64,000 bases of DNA from Pseudoalteromonas sp. XMcav2-N (GTDB lineage: Bacteria; Pseudomonadota; Gammaproteobacteria; Enterobacterales; Alteromonadaceae). The stretch lies in assembly GCF_024124545.1 (NCBI RefSeq), contig NZ_JAMXSF010000001.1:372001-436000 (forward strand), given 5' to 3'. A model generated the notes under the pieces. It was not told the DNA's origin and did not search any database. It was given only the letters and a program-made list of their open reading frames with translations. Below, in pieces: positions 46,232-52,636 of this stretch (position 1 is the stretch's first letter; the number at the start of each line of letters is the position of its first letter). Made by a program: the position numbers and the translations under genes.

Positions 46232-46646
46232 GAGACGCCGCCCTGTCGCAGAGATCAATGTAGTGCCATACATTGATGTTATGCTGGTGTTGTTAATCAT
46301 CTTTATGGCAACGGCGCCACTGATCACACATGGTGTTAAAGTGGACCTACCGCAGATGGAAGAGTCGGATTTGGTAGAGACCAAAGATGCACCACCTATT
46401 ATCGCTACTATCGATGCTGAAGGCCGCTACTATGTTTCGGTAGGAACTGACCCAGAAGCGCCAATGGATGCGGTAGAAGTGGCTGCGGTCATCAAGCTTA
46501 AGTTACAGCAAAACCCCGATACCCCCGTAATGATTAAAGGGTCTGGTCGTGTGTCATATCAGGAAGTACTTTTATTGATGGACTTTTTGAAAAATGCGGG
46601 CGTACCGTCGGTCGGGCTAATGACAAAATCGTTTGAGGACAGTTAA
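46218..46646 (+). CDS. tolR: Tol-Pal system protein TolR
   Basis: TolR is the ExbD-like partner of TolQ. The 142-residue product has a single membrane helix with the essential motor Asp in [20 protein letters not shown] (residues 15-34), then a periplasmic peptidoglycan-binding domain ending [14 protein letters not shown]. It starts inside tolQ in another frame and ends by sharing its last base with the tolA start (TAATG), which is typical of a tightly coupled operon. Confidence 0.97.
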
Positions 46647-47587
46647 TGGATGCTTTAACCAGCGGAATATTAAAGTCGTTTTTACTCCATTTCGCTATAG
46701 CCGGACTACTGTTCGCGACTGCCAACTTTCAGTTTTCCAGTCCCACTGTAATGGAAGTTCAGCTTAATCCTGCCATTAACGAAATTGAAGAAGCAAAAGC
46801 GGTATCAGCTATCTCAGTTAACGAGCAGGCGGTCGAGCGCAAAATTGCCCAGCTACGCGAAAAAGAAGCGCAGCAGAAGCGTGCGGAAGAGCAAAGGATA
46901 CGCGATTTAGAGCGCCGTGCAGTGCAGGCCCGAAAGGATCGTGAAGCTGAAGCCAGACGGATCAAGAAACTGGAACAACAGCGTCTTGCTAAGCTGGAAG
47001 AGAAACGTAAAGCTGAAGCGCAAGCCAAACGCGCACAAGAAATTCAAAACAAAGAGCGCCAGCAAGCCGAAAAGGCGCGCCAGGAAGCGCTTGCTGCTGA
47101 AAAGGCTGCCAAAGCTGCTGCGCAGAAGCGTAAAGCAGAAGAGGACAGGCTGAGGCAGGCTGAGGCGAAACGTAAACAGCAAGAGGAAGAAGCTAAGCGC
47201 AAAGCACAAGCTGCCGAAGAGGCGCGTCAGAAAGCTTTGCAAGAGCAACTTCTCCAGGAGCAACTGGCTCAGGAACAAGCGGCGAGAGCGAAAATTCGCC
47301 AGCAGCAGGTCCTGACCGAAGTTGACAAGTATAAGGCGCTGATTATGCAGCGGATCCAATCTAACTTGTTAATTGATGAGAAAATGAAAGGGAAGCAATG
47401 TCGCCTGAACATTCGCCTGGGCTTTAATGGCCTGGTGACACAAGCGGAGTCACTGGGTGGTGATAAGCTGGTGTGTGAAGCCGCTTTGCGTGCTGTGCGA
47501 ATGGCAGATACCTTGCCTGTTTCTGAGAATAAAGATGTTTTCGAACAGCTTAAAAACATTAACCTGACGATAAAACCAACTCTATAA
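46646..47587 (+). CDS. tolA: Tol-Pal system protein TolA
   Basis: TolA is the periplasm-spanning arm that links the TolQR motor to TolB and Pal. The 313-residue product has an N-terminal membrane helix (about 10-30). A very long Lys/Ala/Glu/Gln-rich helix follows at about 60-215 (RAEEQRIRDLERRAVQ, AEKAAKAAAQKRKAEED), and a compact C-terminal domain III starts at 225 (LIMQRIQSNLLIDEKMKGKQ) with two Cys (QCRLN, LVCEA). Overlap with tolR by one base indicates coupling. The coiled repeat will make many false antisense frames here. Confidence 0.95.
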   Translation: MDALTSGILKSFLLHFAIAGLLFATANFQFSSPTVMEVQLNPAINEIEEAKAVSAISVNEQAVERKIAQLREKEAQQKRAEEQRIRDLERRAVQARKDREAEARRIKKLEQQRLAKLEEKRKAEAQAKRAQEIQNKERQQAEKARQEALAAEKAAKAAAQKRKAEEDRLRQAEAKRKQQEEEAKRKAQAAEEARQKALQEQLLQEQLAQEQAARAKIRQQQVLTEVDKYKALIMQRIQSNLLIDEKMKGKQCRLNIRLGFNGLVTQAESLGGDKLVCEAALRAVRMADTLPVSENKDVFEQLKNINLTIKPTL

Positions 47588-47596
47588 AGGAAGACC

Positions 47597-48955
47597 ATGT
47601 ACAACCATTTAAGAAATTTACTCTTGGTTCTGGCTTTCGCTGCGCAAGGGGTCGCCTACGCAGCATTGGAGATCGTGATAACAGAAGGGGTCGACAGTGC
47701 CCGGCCTATCGCGATAGCTCCGTTTAAATACATTGGCAACGGCGAAGCGCCTGCTGAAATAAGCTCAGTGATTGCGGCGGACTTGATCCGCAGTGGTAAG
47801 TTCAAGCCAGTAGCAGAAGAGCAAATGCCTCAGTTACCTACAACCGATGAAGAAGTGGATTACGATGCCTGGGTTGAGTTAGGTGTAGAAGCTGTTGTTG
47901 TCGGGACCATTACCCAGCAGCCAGCGAATCGCTATCTTATCAAGTATGAGCTGATTGATGTCATCCGTGCGCAGATCACAGGTGGTGAGACCCGCATGAT
48001 GACTAACGGCCAGCTGATGAAGAGTCAGGATCACGTTTTGGAAGCACGTCAAAGTGTGATTGATGCTCAAAGCTTCCGTTATTACGCACATCAGATCAGC
48101 GATGTGGTTTATGAAGCCCTGACAGGTGAAAAAGGGGCGTTCCGCACCAAAATTGCGTATGTGATTGTACGTGAAGAGCAGGACAAACCTTATCAGTTGG
48201 TTGTTGCTGACTATGACGGCTATAACGAGCAGGTACTATTGCGTTCTAAAGAGCCGTTAATGTCTCCGGCCTGGTCACCTGATGGTAATAAACTGGCGTA
48301 TGTGACGTTCGAAAATCGTCAGTCACAAATTTATATTCAGGATATTTATACGGGTAAGCGTGAGATCTTAACCAGTTACCCGGGGATCAATGGCGCACCA
48401 CAGTTTTCGCCGGATGGTACACAAATGTTGATCGTGTTGTCTAAAGACAAAGGCGGTGCAACTGAAGTGTATGTAATTGACCTGGAAACGCGCAAAGAGA
48501 GGCGTCTGACTAAGCACCGTAGTATAGATACTGAGCCAACCTGGCATCCAAATGGCAAAGAAATAGTCTATACATCTGAAAGGGGTGGTAATGCCCAGAT
48601 TTATAAGTTAAATTTAGATACAGGAAGATCACGGCGTGTAACTTTCGACGGCGACATGAACTTAGCCGGGTCGATAACGCCAGATGGTAAACAATTGGTA
48701 ATGGTAAATCGTACCTTGGGTCGTTACCATATTGCCAAGAAAGAATTGGATTCTGGGCTGTTTCAGGTATTAACGCGCACCAGACTCGATGAATCACCGA
48801 GTATTGCGCCGAACGGCTCTATGATTATTTATAGTACCTTGCATAATAATAAGCAGGTACTGGCGTTGGTGTCGATGGATGGCCGCTTTAAGGCCCGCCT
48901 GCCGGTGTTAGACGGACAGGTTAAGGCACCAGCTTGGTCGCCATTTTTACAGTAA
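47597..48955 (+). CDS. tolB: Tol-Pal system beta-propeller protein TolB
   Basis: This 452-residue periplasmic protein has a Sec signal of about 22 residues ([16 protein letters not shown]), an N-terminal alpha/beta domain, and a six-bladed propeller. The propeller repeats are visible as [32 protein letters not shown] and [15 protein letters not shown]. TolB binds Pal and TolA in turn and so regulates the Pal-peptidoglycan link during constriction. An AAAGGAAG site precedes the ATG, ten bases after tolA. Pal follows on the same transcript. Confidence 0.97.
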
Positions 48956-48996
48956 TTTTGCTGGTAAGACTTATAAAAGATATAGGAATATACTCG

Positions 48997-49530
48997 ATGC
49001 AACTTAACAAAACTCTCAAGGCCCTTTTGGTCGCGTTGCCTGTGATGACGCTGGCTGCATGTAGCTCTTCATCGGGCACTGATGCAGGCGCTGGCAGCGA
49101 AACAAACGCAGCAACTGCGGACAATGGCAGCAACGTTGATGTGAACACAGCTACACGTCAGAAAACAGCTGAAGAGCTACTGAAAGAAAAGTATGAAGCG
49201 TTGCGTCAAGAGCAAATCGTATACTTCGACTTCGACAAGTCTACTGTTCGCAGCGAGTTCGTAGAGCTTCTGCAAGCACACGCTGACTTTCTGGTTAAAA
49301 ACCCAAGCGTTAAAGTACTGATCGAAGGTCACGCTGATGAGCGCGGTACGCCAGAGTACAACATCGCACTGGGTGAAAGCCGTGGTAAAGCGGTTGCTAA
49401 GTATCTGCAGAGCCTGGGTGTGTCTGACAGCCAAATGTCTGTTGTAAGTTATGGTGAAGAAAAGCCAATGGACAAAGCGCGCACTGAACAAGCCTTTGCT
49501 AAGAACCGCCGCGCGGTACTGGTATACTAA
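48997..49530 (+). CDS. pal: Peptidoglycan-associated lipoprotein Pal
   Basis: The 177-residue outer-membrane lipoprotein has its lipobox LAAC with Cys22 and an Ala/Ser/Thr/Gly linker to about residue 60. An OmpA-like peptidoglycan-binding domain follows (IVYFDFDKSTVRSEF, LIEGHADERGTPEYNIALGE, NRRAVLVY). The ATG at 48997 is used because AGGAA precedes it and it directly starts the lipoprotein signal; the in-frame upstream start at 48934 would overlap tolB and add a hydrophobic false leader. Pal anchors the outer membrane to the wall and is the endpoint of the TolQRAB motor. Confidence 0.97.
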   Translation: MQLNKTLKALLVALPVMTLAACSSSSGTDAGAGSETNAATADNGSNVDVNTATRQKTAEELLKEKYEALRQEQIVYFDFDKSTVRSEFVELLQAHADFLVKNPSVKVLIEGHADERGTPEYNIALGESRGKAVAKYLQSLGVSDSQMSVVSYGEEKPMDKARTEQAFAKNRRAVLVY

Positions 49531-49546
49531 TCGTTAAAGAGATGCT

Positions 49547-50302
49547 ATGAAGCCGAATACTTTTTTGGCAGCGATCATCTTAGTCAGCGGGAGCTCCCAA
49601 TTGTGGGCAGCTCCCGCTGCTGTATCTGATGCTGCTGGTTCTAACCAAACTATTGAACAACGTTTGTCTGCGCTTGAGGGCCTGATGCGAAACCGCAACT
49701 TGATCCAGGCGGAGCTACAAACGCAACTTGACCAACTACAGGACGAAGTGAGCCAGATCCGTGGTGTAACGGAAGAGCAAAGTTACAAGCTCGAAAAAGT
49801 GTTACAGCGCCAGCGTGAGCTTTATCAGGAAATAGAAACGCGAGTCACGCAGGTTTATGAGCAGAGCAAGCAGCTAGCGCCCGCAGTGACATCTGACAGT
49901 GCAACTGCGCAGGCCGTGAGCACTGACTTGTCGGAAAATGAAGCGTACGACAGAGCCGTTGCGTTGATTATGAAAGATAAGCGTTACGATGCGGCTATCC
50001 CGGAATTCGAAGGCTTCCTTAAGCAGTTTCCCAATTCCGTCTATATACCTAACGCGCACTATTGGTTAGGTCAGCTACAGTCTATCAAGAATCAAGACAC
50101 TCAGGCCATGGTGCACTTCCGTACCGTGGTAGATCAGTTTGCTGATTCAAATAAGCGACCAGATGCGATGTTAAAGCTGGGAACCTTGCTCCAGAAGACA
50201 GGACAATCTGCACAAGCAAAAACCTTGTTCGAGAATTTAATCAAAGAATATCCCAGCACAACGGCTGCAAAATTGGCAACGGAGCGACTGAGCAAAATAT
50301 AA
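49547..50302 (+). CDS. cpoB: Cell division coordinator CpoB (YbgF)
   Basis: This 251-residue periplasmic protein has a signal ending LWAAPAA. A trimerising coiled coil spans about 35-105 (IEQRLSALEGLMRNRNLIQA, VEKVLQRQRELYQEIE-type heptads). A C-terminal TPR domain follows (YDRAVALIMKDKRYDAAIPE, YIPNAHYWLGQLQ, RPDAMLKLGTLL). CpoB binds TolA and PBP1B and couples Tol function with wall synthesis. It is the last gene of the tol-pal operon, 16 bases after pal. No terminator is obvious before the tRNA promoter. Confidence 0.95.
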   Translation: MKPNTFLAAIILVSGSSQLWAAPAAVSDAAGSNQTIEQRLSALEGLMRNRNLIQAELQTQLDQLQDEVSQIRGVTEEQSYKLEKVLQRQRELYQEIETRVTQVYEQSKQLAPAVTSDSATAQAVSTDLSENEAYDRAVALIMKDKRYDAAIPEFEGFLKQFPNSVYIPNAHYWLGQLQSIKNQDTQAMVHFRTVVDQFADSNKRPDAMLKLGTLLQKTGQSAQAKTLFENLIKEYPSTTAAKLATERLSKI

Positions 50303-50377
50303 ATGGCTGATATTTTCTCAGAATGATTTAAAATTAGGCGCTTAGACGCGAAATTTGAAAAAAACAGGCAATTTCGG

Positions 50378-50405
50378 TTGCACAAGATTTTTAAATAAGT
50401 ATTAT
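50378..50405 (+). promoter_or_regulatory. Stable-RNA promoter of the tRNA-Lys array
   Basis: TTGCAC at 50378-50383, a 16-base spacer, and TATTAT at 50400-50405. The discriminator AAGCGCCCGC is GC-rich, as in stringently controlled tRNA/rRNA promoters. The first tRNA begins about 50 bases downstream. Confidence 0.75.
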
Positions 50406-50460
50406 AAGCGCCCGCAGCAGCCGATAGTGTTACACACATCTTGCAGCGAAACAATTTAGT

Positions 50461-50536
50461 GGGTCATTAGCTCAGTTGGTAGAGCAGTGGACTTTTAATC
50501 CATTGGTCGATGGTTCGAGTCCATCATGACCCACCA
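50461..50536 (+). tRNA. tRNA-Lys (anticodon TTT), copy 1
   Basis: 76 bases, GGGTCAT acceptor arm paired with ATGACCC, encoded CCA. The anticodon loop CTTTTAA reads Lys AAA/AAG. Confidence 0.97.
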
Positions 50537-50574
50537 TTCAAATTTGTTATTTTTACTTTAAGTAAAGCCAGAGC

Positions 50575-50650
50575 GGGTCATTAGCTCAGTTGGTAGAGCA
50601 GTGGACTTTTAATCCATTGGTCGATGGTTCGAGTCCATCATGACCCACCA
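50575..50650 (+). tRNA. tRNA-Lys (TTT), copy 2
   Basis: Identical in sequence to copy 1, 38 bases after it. It begins the regular repeat of about 112 bases that carries the rest of the array. Confidence 0.97.
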
Positions 50651-50685
50651 TTCAAATTTGGTGTATTATTTAAATAATCTCGAGC

Positions 50686-50761
50686 GGGTCATTAGCTCAG
50701 TTGGTAGAGCAGTGGACTTTTAATCCATTGGTCGATGGTTCGAGTCCATCATGACCCACCA
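50686..50761 (+). tRNA. tRNA-Lys (TTT), copy 3
   Basis: Identical to copy 1. Its start lies 111 bases after the start of copy 2, with a similar AT-rich spacer ending CTCGAGC. Confidence 0.97.
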
Positions 50762-50797
50762 TTCACATTTGGTGTATTATTTAAGTAACTTTCGAGC

Positions 50798-50873
50798 GGG
50801 TCATTAGCTCAGTTGGTAGAGCAGTGGACTTTTAATCCATTGGTCGATGGTTCGAGTCCATCATGACCCACCA
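50798..50873 (+). tRNA. tRNA-Lys (TTT), copy 4
   Basis: Identical to copy 1. The repeat period is 112 bases. Confidence 0.97.
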
Positions 50874-50909
50874 TTCAAATTTGGTGTATCACTTAAGTAA
50901 CTTTCGAGC

Positions 50910-50985
50910 GGGTCATTAGCTCAGTTGGTAGAGCAGTGGACTTTTAATCCATTGGTCGATGGTTCGAGTCCATCATGACCCACCA
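50910..50985 (+). tRNA. tRNA-Lys (TTT), copy 5
   Basis: Identical to copy 1. The repeat period is 112 bases. The next unit, in register, is broken. Confidence 0.97.
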
Positions 50986-51021
50986 TTCAAATTTGGTGTA
51001 TCACTTAAGTAACTCTCGAGC

Positions 51022-51146
51022 GGGTCATTAGCTCAGTTGGGTGAGAAAAACGAAGCATCGCTTCGCAGTTTTCGAACGCGAGTCAGGACGACGACGCTAA
51101 CCGGTAGCCGGGCCTAAACGTCAGGACGACTTAATGGCACTTTAAC
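51022..51146 (+). pseudogene. Truncated tRNA-Lys fused to a hairpin-rich module, copy A
   Basis: The first 19 bases, GGGTCATTAGCTCAGTTGG, are those of the tRNA-Lys, exactly in the 112-base register of the array. The rest of the tRNA is replaced by about 106 unrelated bases. These contain a stem CGAAGC-ATC-GCTTCG set between A-rich and T-rich flanks, and two copies of GTCAGGACGAC. The module ends just before the usual CGAGC spacer end and another intact tRNA. It cannot be a functional lysine tRNA. Whether it is a processed RNA, an insertion or debris of recombination is open. Confidence 0.75.
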
Positions 51147-51153
51147 TTCGAGC

Positions 51154-51229
51154 GGGTCATTAGCTCAGTTGGTAGAGCAGTGGACTTTTAATCCATTGGT
51201 CGATGGTTCGAGTCCATCATGACCCACCA
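51154..51229 (+). tRNA. tRNA-Lys (TTT), copy 6
   Basis: Identical to copy 1. It lies between the two truncated-tRNA modules. Confidence 0.97.
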
Positions 51230-51265
51230 TTCAAATTTGGTGTATCACTTAAGTAACTCTCGAGC

Positions 51266-51380
51266 GGGTCATTAGCTCAGTTGGGTGAGAAAAACGAAGC
51301 ACCGCTTCGCAGTTTTCGAACGCGAGTCAGGACGACGACGCCGGAACCAACCGTCAGGACGACTTAATGGCACTTTAACA
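51266..51380 (+). pseudogene. Truncated tRNA-Lys fused to a hairpin-rich module, copy B
   Basis: Same structure as copy A: 19 bases of tRNA-Lys, then a module starting GTGAGAAAAACGAAGC and ending CTTTAAC. It differs from copy A in the hairpin loop (ACC for ATC) and by a shorter, different segment between the two GTCAGGACGAC repeats. The conserved ends with a variable centre suggest two separate copies of one element, not a single read error. Confidence 0.75.
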
Positions 51381-51386
51381 CCGAGC

Positions 51387-51462
51387 GGGTCATTAGCTCA
51401 GTTGGTAGAGCAGTGGACTTTTAATCCATTGGTCGATGGTTCGAGTCCATCATGACCCACCA
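51387..51462 (+). tRNA. tRNA-Lys (TTT), copy 7
   Basis: Identical to copy 1 and last in the array. No clear terminator follows; a T-rich tract lies at 51463-51500. Confidence 0.97.
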
Positions 51463-51580
51463 TTCTTGCATACTCTTTTCCCTTTCATAATCTCTTAAAT
51501 ATTCCTTCAAAACTCCGACTTAAACTAGGATTATCGCCCCGTTTTTCGTATAATTCGCGGATATCCCGTAATGTGGACTA

Positions 51581-52636
51581 GTGGTCGAGAGAATGAGTCT
51601 AGCAGAACAAATTATGCCCGAGGATTATATTTTTCCTCCAAAACCTGCGCCTTTAACTAAGCAGGAACAAGCCGAATATAAAACCAGAATTAAAGCGTTG
51701 CTAAAAGAAAAGAACGCTGTCTTGGTTGCCCATTATTACACTGATCCTGAGATCCAAGCTTTGGCCGAGGAAACCGGTGGATGCGTAGCAGATTCGCTGG
51801 AAATGGCTCGCTTTGGTGCCAAGCAACAAGATGCTGATATGATCATAGTTGCCGGGGTACGTTTTATGGGTGAAACCGCCAAGATCTTAACACCAGAAAA
51901 AACCGTTGTTATGCCAACTTTGGCTGCAACCTGTTCATTGGATGTAGGATGTCCTATTGATGCGTTTTCTGCGTTTTGTGATCAACACCCAGACCGAAAG
52001 GTTGTTGTATACGCAAATACATCCACCGCAGTGAAAGCGCGCGCTGACTGGATTGTGACTTCGTCATGTGCACTTGAGATTGTCGAGCATTTGGACTCGG
52101 AAGGTGAAAAGATCATCTGGGGTCCAGATAAGCATTTAGGTTCTTACATTCAAAAGAAAACCGGTGCCGATATGATCATGTGGAATGGGGCATGTATCGT
52201 TCACGATGAGTTTAAAACCAAAGCGCTGAAAGACATGAAAGCGCTGCATCCGGACGCTGCCGTATTAGTTCATCCGGAATCTCCTGCGGAGATTGTGGAT
52301 TTGGCTGATGCTGTGGGTTCAACAAGTCAGTTGATTAGAGCGGCACAAGAGATGCCTAATCAGAAGTTCATCGTAGCGACTGACCGCGGTATCTTTTACA
52401 AAATGCAGCAGTTATGCCCTGAAAAAGAATTTTTTGAAGCGCCAACGGCGGGTGAAGGCGCAACCTGTAAAAGCTGTGCTCATTGCCCATGGATGGCCAT
52501 GAATGGTCTTAAAGCCATTGAAGAAGCTTTGATTGACCCTAGCGGAAAAGAAGTCTTCGTTGACATGGAGTTACGCGAAGGTGCACTACGCTCGCTTAAC
52601 CGTATGTTGGATTTTTCTGCAAGCTTACAAAAATAG
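51581..52636 (+). CDS. nadA: Quinolinate synthase A
   Basis: NadA condenses iminoaspartate with dihydroxyacetone phosphate to quinolinate in NAD synthesis, using a 4Fe-4S cluster. The 351-residue frame has the three cluster cysteines in [10 protein letters not shown] (near 68), [10 protein letters not shown] (near 127), and [16 protein letters not shown] (near 303). The substrate loops [20 protein letters not shown] and [15 protein letters not shown] are also present. The start is not certain: the GTG at 51581 (GGA close upstream) or the in-frame ATG at 51593 giving [11 protein letters not shown], which better resembles other NadA N-termini. It stands alone between tRNA loci. Confidence 0.96.

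Follow-up and report, generated by a model that had tools for sequence, protein, structure and literature searches.

The stretch analysed here (the window) comprises 64,000 nucleotides of the Pseudoalteromonas sp. XMcav2-N genome, which totals 5.7 Mb in 44 contigs. It contains an array of seven tRNA-Lys(TTT) genes lying between cpoB and nadA, with cpoB, nadA, the tRNA genes, the fragments and the modules all on the plus strand. The cpoB gene (ybgF; 49547–50302) was recognised by a match to NCBIfam TIGR02795 above its cut-off and to NF008068 below its cut-off, and nadA (51581–52636) by TIGR00550. The tRNA genes, called with equal scores by ARAGORN and Rfam, span 50461–51462. Five intact genes come first (50461–50536, 50575–50650, 50686–50761, 50798–50873 and 50910–50985), and two more follow at 51154–51229 and 51387–51462 (ARAGORN). 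Upstream of cpoB, ORFs resembling tolA, tolB and pal were recognised by eye, giving a gene order within 46646–52636 that is presumably the one found around the lysT cluster of E. coli.

Each of the last two genes stands immediately 3′ of a composite in which a short piece of tRNA-Lys runs directly into a non-coding module. Fragment 1 (51022–51040) consists of the acceptor 5′ strand and the start of the D-arm and ends in AGTTGG; it is followed by module 1, 106 nt in length (51041–51146). Fragment 2 (51266–51284) is likewise followed by module 2, of 95 nt (51285–51379). The original prediction of two 19-base tRNA-Lys 5′ pieces continuing into modules of about 95–106 bases is therefore borne out (51022–51146 and 51266–51379), and both pieces are identical to the 5′ end of tRNA-Lys at 19 of 19 positions. 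As also predicted, the modules have the same ends and different centres: they share their first part and both termini, while module 1 possesses an extra inner stretch that is absent from module 2. The proposed 112-base register holds for the starts of the fragments (50910 to 51022, and 51154 to 51266) but not for the module units, which are longer: from the fragment start, the following tRNA begins 132 and 121 nt further on, as compared with the 112-base tRNA repeat. Most tRNA genes of the array carry no module, and neither modules nor fragments were called as tRNA by ARAGORN or Rfam in the window.

Both modules open with a junction hairpin (51041–51077 in module 1, and starting at 51285 in module 2), followed by two small hairpins with GGA in the loop (51082–51092 and 51120–51130 in module 1; 51326–51336 and 51353–51363 in module 2). 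The paired repeats noted at the outset do exist, as two GTCAGGACGAC copies per module; pairing between them is not required, however, and each forms a hairpin of its own, GTC-AGGAC-GAC. Taken alone, the window modules fold no better than their shuffled counterparts (z of −1.36 for module 1 and −0.15 for module 2), and the same is true when the tRNA fragment is included (−1.60 and −0.60). Elsewhere, the z score is −1.82 for a tRNA-Met module of the same genome, and −5.65, −3.92 and −3.15 for modules at three other loci (L188, L189 and L218). The structural case accordingly rests on covariation and not on the fold energy of the window modules.

A search with the module DNA found matches in 8 of 59 other genomes at E ≤ 0.01. 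These mostly adjoin tRNA genes, and most have the same layout within arrays of tRNA-Lys or clusters of tRNA-Phe/Thr; a few lack a tRNA (loci L013 and L018, and those linked to 5S rRNA). This search also located two further copies in the same genome, on contig 3 upstream of tRNA-Met, where a 5′-tRNA-Met piece plus module occurs twice in tandem before the intact gene. A covariance model, R1, was then built from an alignment of 19 modules that includes both window copies, on which it gives E-values of 1.1e-27 and 2.5e-25 (106.4 bits for module 1 and 115.1 bits for module 2). R1 matched 74 of 108 genomes of the genus at E ≤ 0.01, the present genome included, with the weak matches being uncertain because the model contains a tRNA-like D-arm; at least 42 of the 108 have a match of at least 60 bits among the matches listed. 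Within the order, R1 found matches in 10 of 394 genomes at 1e-8, seven of them outside the genus.

Across the class, a broader model, R2, whose E-values are roughly calibrated, found matches in 39 of 369 genomes at 1e-6 (the present one included), representing 33 of 272 genera. By reading, a tRNA on the same strand follows within 600 nt in 23 of 29 R2 loci, three (L229, L230 and L236) have a tRNA-like 5′ piece close to a contig end, and three (L225, L238 and L239) have neither a downstream tRNA nor a tRNA-like 5′ piece. Scanning named genomes with a pattern free of GGA returned 37 stretches, 11 of them outside Pseudoalteromonas, from 10 genomes: two of Marinimicrobium and otherwise MAGs, one of Alcanivorax and one of Coxiellaceae among them. 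To judge from these sequences, the module is far from a chance arrangement. A literature search of open-licence PMC texts found no description of a 5′ fragment joined to such a module, and tRNA-linked modules are a real, conserved and widely distributed feature that is apparently undescribed.

Linkage to tRNA genes was counted in 100 loci chosen from the listed R1 matches; of the 181 matches in these loci, the best 150 were used, a few of which overlap (e.g., L069/L134). Among these best 150, 114 lie within 320 nt of a tRNA on the same strand, 10 adjoin the 3′ end of a 5S gene in antisense, and 26 lie elsewhere or are unclassified. As to whether copies always sit beside a tRNA 5′ fragment, they are thus mostly tRNA-adjacent, with 36 of the best 150 of 181 having no tRNA nearby. 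A tRNA lies downstream in 111 of the best 150 of 181; it starts 12–17 nt past the end of the match in 104 of the 111, and its first 9 nt agree at all nine positions in 79 and at seven or more in 105.

In the loci examined, 147 distinct tRNA-linked modules precede ten types of tRNA (Lys 70, Met 32, Val 13, Arg 12, Phe 11, Thr 3, Ala 2, Gly 2, Asn 1 and Ile 1), and the 5′ copy is identical at 19 of 19 nt in 97 of them. This set was compiled, upstream and in the sense direction only, from 5′ copies with at most four mismatches that continue into TTGGG, CTGGG, TCGGG or TTGAG. The largest array has seven modules at one locus (L045), and at two loci (L214 and L220) the fragment is longer, with the junction lying deeper inside tRNA-Met. 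The suggestion of a mobile element that targets tRNA genes, or of a tRNA-derived RNA, finds partial support in the D-loop junction that is common to modules before all ten types.

Of the 26 copies that lie elsewhere or are unclassified, some are found where purL and trkH end, at the 3′ side, and one sits in antisense at the end of a gene for a protein ending in IHPTGSEEFVTMR, which we take to be glutathione reductase. At such sites, the body also starts after GG, many copies continuing with GYGA and some with GTAA or ACGA. Read in the direction of the rRNA, the 5S-linked copies of Pseudoalteromonas give the order 5S gene, antisense body, repeat of the 5S end, an order shared with the tRNA-linked repeats of E. 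coli described below. The fear that the module is merely part of a known rRNA or tRNA spacer is therefore realised only in part: relatives do occur at 5S ends, yet in antisense, and they also occur at the ends of protein genes.

Several neighbouring arrangements were seen at such loci. The ends of rRNA operons (positions 1–1560 of L029, and L084, L085, L097 and L138) contain repeated blocks in which a terminator is joined to a duplicate of the 5S 3′ end, together with antisense modules, and in L029 a second 5S copy at 503–631 scores lower than the first (42.8 versus 84.4 bits). Repeated GGA hairpins without a tRNA piece were found in L018, in four loci after trkH (L117, L123, L127 and L132) and at a contig end of the present genome (L031/L032); these have flanks resembling GAACGCGAG...GAGCCGG and lie at gene 3′ ends or alone, several of them in tandem. 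In L110–L112 and L133, modules lie near palindromes of the type GTAGGTC...GACCTAC that resemble REP sequences.

Covariation supports the structure of the module. In alignment A1, both sides change in 11 of 22 pairs and 96% of cells pair; none of 500 shuffles reached the covariation score or the number of double-sided changes, and 2 of 500 reached the number of pair types. In alignment A4, with 45 distinct rows from several lineages, both sides change in 17 of 22 pairs with 93.7% pairing, a figure to be read with the fact that A4 was fitted to the covariance model, which favours pairing. Again, none of 500 shuffles reached the double-sided changes or the covariation score, while the pair types (6 of 500) are less clear. 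The GYGA that follows the junction pairs with GARC, the end of the first hairpin, and the insert therefore begins at the base of a hairpin. Among 27 non-redundant modules, the Y-R pair at this junction is readable in 21 (five without a readable stem and one without a start excluded) and is T-A in 16 and C-G in 5. In the full set of 147, it is readable in 114 (31 and two excluded on the same grounds), with T-A in 80, C-G in 31, T-G in 2 and a C-A mismatch in 1.

A comparison of related genomes with and without a module is informative about how the arrangement may have arisen. For tRNA-Met, 30 loci from the genus comprise 17 occupied, nine empty and four unreadable sites. In genome G086, a close relative, the site is empty, and the promoter region runs through ...CAAGCACTTCTAAAT directly into the tRNA. 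Genomes G009 and G085 have a near-identical leader followed by AAATGGCCCTATAGCTCAGTTGG, about 119 nt of insert, AAATGGCCCTATAGCTCAGTTGG again and the intact tRNA, AAATGGCCCTATAGCTCAGTTGG being a 23-bp direct repeat that ends in the D-loop (AGTTGG|G). This insert belongs to a second type of module, with another sequence and the same junction as the R1 type. For tRNA-Val, five of the best-matching 30 loci are occupied and 25 are empty, and the orphan 5′ end stands at the original position. Direct repeats at other loci range, by eye, from about 20 to more than 37 bp. The idea of a mobile element targeting tRNA genes gains from these loci, in which empty and occupied tRNA-Met and tRNA-Val sites resemble the states before and after an insertion with target duplication. 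Such an insertion appears well supported by the sequences as the simplest account, because related modules occur at many tRNA loci; the empty tRNA-Met site could also be a clean deletion between the repeats.

The second type of module, in which a GTTTTC or GTAAAC hairpin is followed by GTCGAGGAAGC..., was seen at six tRNA-Met loci (L100, L104, L107, L177, L251 and L252), with the R1-type D-loop junction and the tRNA-Met 5′ duplication, and sometimes in tandem with the R1 type. Separately, the spacer after tRNA-Val at a number of loci (L277, L278, L280–L282, L284–L287, L293–L296 and L299–L301) holds GCACTACC(T), a piece also present inside tRNA-Val (with one change in L295), and then a different hairpin-like sequence. 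This is perhaps another insert associated with a tRNA piece.

The small hairpins have loops such as AGGAC, AGGAT, ATGGAT, AGGGAC and AGGAA, on quite different stems. In the 27 non-redundant modules (left from the 147 once redundant ones of ≥75% identity, short ones and N-containing ones had been dropped), GGA-loop hairpins number 1.85 per module, as compared with 0.54 after dinucleotide shuffling (200 shuffles, maximum 1.04), a test that leans towards GGA because R1 and R2 contain GGA positions. In the same modules, other loops show no enrichment (observed versus shuffled: TCC 0.19/0.16, CGA 0.59/0.58 and GAG 0.48/0.62), GCA is mildly enriched (0.89/0.48, maximum 0.85), and so is AGG, which overlaps GGA (1.33/0.45). 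An unbiased version of the test used modules found with the GGA-free pattern and counted only the sequence 3′ of that pattern. Outside Pseudoalteromonas (n = 12), it gave 1.42 GGA hairpins per module against 0.35 when shuffled, with at least one in 10 of 12 and at least two in 6 of 12; the two modules of this set that have none are L180 and L206. Within Pseudoalteromonas (n = 41), the values were 2.27 and 0.31, with at least two GGA hairpins in 40 of 41. By reading, L176 and L200 lack GGA at the position of hairpin 1.

Such loops bring to mind the global regulator CsrA, for which the fuller consensus is ANGGAN, displayed between paired bases. A GGA in a hairpin loop is treated as the canonical CsrA motif in the relevant part of a report on E. 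coli rRNA-linked RNAs (PMC8144298). Like the Csr/Rsm sponges described in parts of two reports (CsrB, RsmZ and Pf1–Pf3; PMC11882849, PMC9927453), the modules present GGA repeatedly in hairpin loops; the sponges, however, are free-standing genes with a promoter of their own, whereas each module carries about two GGA hairpins and matches no Rfam family. Rfam scans of the window and of 20 other loci returned tRNA and rRNA but nothing over the modules, no Csr/Rsm family of Rfam matches them, and a permissive scan gave two sub-threshold plastid families over a tRNA, not over modules. Elsewhere in the genome, a weak match to CsrB (RF00018; 22.9 bits, below the curated cut-off) lies on the minus strand of contig 2 (G000:C2:32612–32938), possibly a Csr sRNA of the Pf type. 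For Pseudoalteromonas fuliginea, 25, 21 and 9 GGA motifs are given for Pf1, Pf2 and Pf3, respectively, in a paper whose main text does not contain the word "tRNA" (PMC11882849). Since dedicated Csr sRNAs occur in that species, the modules would be auxiliary.

Precedents for regulatory by-products of stable-RNA operons come from E. coli, where, in the sections of PMC8144298 devoted to them, the RrA, RrB and RrF sRNAs are placed at the ends of rRNA operons, in the sense direction at 5S 3′ ends. In those sections, RrB arises as a by-product of an rRNA operon and binds CsrA in vitro by way of its GGA sites, with a KD near 100 nM, and the in-vivo effects of the rRNA-linked RNAs are modest (PMC8144298). 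As so described, these sRNAs and the modules (the latter by prediction) are alike in being GGA-loop by-products of stable-RNA operons; the likeness is one of description, and the modules are linked to tRNA 5′ ends whereas RrA, RrB and RrF are linked to 5S 3′ ends. The 5S-linked copies of Pseudoalteromonas have a geometry similar to the latter but are antisense to the rRNA, and read-through from the rRNA would therefore make no GGA sites there.

The tRNA-linked repeats (TLRs) of E. coli, reportedly first described in 1978, qualify the claim that no described element matches the modules, as a mirror-image analogue. In the pertinent sections of PMC8144298, TLRs (rttR in tyrTV being one) repeat the last 18–19 bp of the tRNA or rRNA that precedes them, number one to five per locus, and had no established function before the work on three rRNA-linked ones. 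So described, TLRs and modules are both short non-coding units in tRNA operons with an 18–19 bp copy of the end of a neighbouring tRNA. By position, the modules lie within tRNA operons as TLRs do, being beside tRNA genes and on the same strand; TLRs, however, end in a repeat of the 3′ terminus of the tRNA or rRNA upstream, whereas the modules copy the 5′ end of the downstream tRNA at their 5′ side. The module body appears unrelated to rttR, the best R2 score on the rttR region being 0.3 bits with filters off. Judged on sequence, the modules are not TLRs by definition and resemble them in mirror image, the body having been compared with rttR alone. With regard to CsrA, the same source in part reports that 19 TLRs in E. 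coli tRNA operons score below 0.01 in a predictor of CsrB-family RNAs and that only those of rRNA operons score high (PMC8144298).

Integrative elements leave tRNA fragments as well, and in the relevant portion of PMC9897764 partial and complete tRNA copies flank inserts of about 9–23 kb. The modules share with these an insert between a partial and a complete tRNA copy that form direct repeats, with the tRNA left intact, but as compared with that account, their inserts are of about 100–120 nt, non-coding and placed at the D-loop (PMC9897764). No integrase was found in the modules, and about 100–120 nt leaves no room for such a gene. Two other comparisons were dropped. The sequence GTTGGGY resembles an attC core, and the repeat duplication resembles spacer acquisition; an integron attC has no consistent partner site here (by eye), and neither it nor Cas1-type repeat duplication fits inserts that are conserved and about 100–120 nt long.

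Several explanations compete for these observations. The modules might be a purely selfish miniature element, akin to REP sequences or MITEs, that inserts after GG and whose hairpins serve movement as single-stranded DNA; tRNA sites would be tolerated because the duplication keeps the genes whole, and the GGA loops would be recognised by a transposase or be incidental. Copies at the 3′ ends of purL and trkH and antisense to the IHPTGSEEFVTMR gene and to 5S 3′ ends, all with the body after GG, speak for such an element, as does the coincidence of the junction bases with the base of the first hairpin. REP/RAYT and IS200/IS605-type palindromic repeats are hairpin repeats that lie beside a short target motif; the modules differ from these in their long direct repeats, and no Y1 transposase (PF01797) was found in the present genome by a search that was positive in 5 of 14 controls, on which ground mobilisation in cis by a RAYT/IS200 enzyme was rejected. 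A selfish origin also leaves aside the enrichment of GGA in loops, as opposed to TCC, GAG and CGA (with GCA only mildly enriched), and the sense orientation of 147 of 147 tRNA-linked modules, in a search that covered that direction only. We regard it as unlikely but deserving of real weight. A distinctly poorer prospect is that tandem duplication of tRNA genes was followed by replacement of the 3′ part of one copy through D-arm recombination with module-bearing tRNA genes, with no transposition at all. The AGCTCAGTTGG D-arm is nearly constant, tRNA arrays recombine easily, and at several tRNA-Phe loci the fused piece reads AGTTGG where the intact gene reads AGTCGG, as if the D-arm had travelled with the module. 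Nevertheless, the local AGTCGG is kept in L227 and in one copy of L237, the GG junction is common to non-tRNA sites, and in the tRNA-Met and tRNA-Val comparisons the leader is nearly unchanged, with only the module and a short repeat added.

It is more doubtful still that the modules are elements for processing or spacing of tRNA precursors (for example, a guide for RNase E or RNase P) whose GGA loops have no protein partner. They do lie between tRNAs, with an orphan 5′ end beside the true one, and folds of the window tRNA-Lys modules allow pairing between the fragment and the module's 3′ end. By eye, this pairing is unavailable in tRNA-Met, tRNA-Val and tRNA-Phe modules, and a closing helix was accordingly dropped as a general feature; moreover, most tRNA genes of the window array do without a module, and the conservation of GGA would go unexplained. 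Finally, an assembly artefact of a repetitive array, named at the outset as grounds for abandoning the observation, is scarcely credible. Repeats are hard to assemble and there are Ns in the array of G014, but modules recur in many separate assemblies, including five in two contigs with a completeness of 100 (G028, G089, G094, G101 and G110), which refutes an artefact for the arrangement.

With moderate confidence, we favour the view that the modules are a non-autonomous insertion family that places a predicted CsrA-binding RNA in tRNA operons. The family would consist of non-coding insertions of roughly 95–120 nt in several lineages of Gammaproteobacteria, and the element would insert after GG (often TTGG) and, in tRNA genes, into the D-loop right after ...AGTTGG. 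In the process, the 5′ end of the tRNA would be duplicated over about 20–24 bp, sometimes with more of the leader, the left copy becoming the orphan 5′ fragment and the right copy completing an intact tRNA. As the right copy restores the tRNA, insertion would be harmless, and D-loops would be frequent among surviving sites because the duplicated 5′ end restores the gene. Tandem units would then multiply, probably through recombination between the direct repeats.

Once resident in sense within a tRNA transcription unit, the module would be co-transcribed with the tRNA and excised from the precursor, with RNase P releasing the 3′ side when it cuts at the following tRNA. The predicted RNA would begin with the junction hairpin (GYGA...GARC) and continue with small hairpins, one or two in number, whose (A)NGGAN loops are likely sites for CsrA/RsmA, and selection may have kept these hairpins because CsrA binds them. 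Arrays of modules could thereby titrate CsrA in proportion to tRNA transcription, i.e., to growth rate. An RNA function of this kind is plausible. More tentatively, and at a good deal less than even confidence, the modules may represent a whole class of small, non-autonomous mobile RNA genes in Gammaproteobacteria ("5-prime TLRs"), defined by D-loop insertion, a target duplication of 20–24 bp and CsrA-titrating hairpins tied to the rate of tRNA synthesis, for which the TLRs of E. coli would be a parallel or mirror-image outcome.

If this is true, a widespread and apparently unnamed RNA family would be added to the tRNA operons of Gammaproteobacteria, and with it a direct genomic link between the transcription of stable RNA and CsrA as a global regulator. 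The long-standing puzzle posed by tRNA-linked repeats would become testable in related genomes with and without the insert at one tRNA, such as G086 as compared with G009 and G085, and the arrangement points to an insertion mechanism that would duplicate 20–24 bp and leave the tRNA intact.
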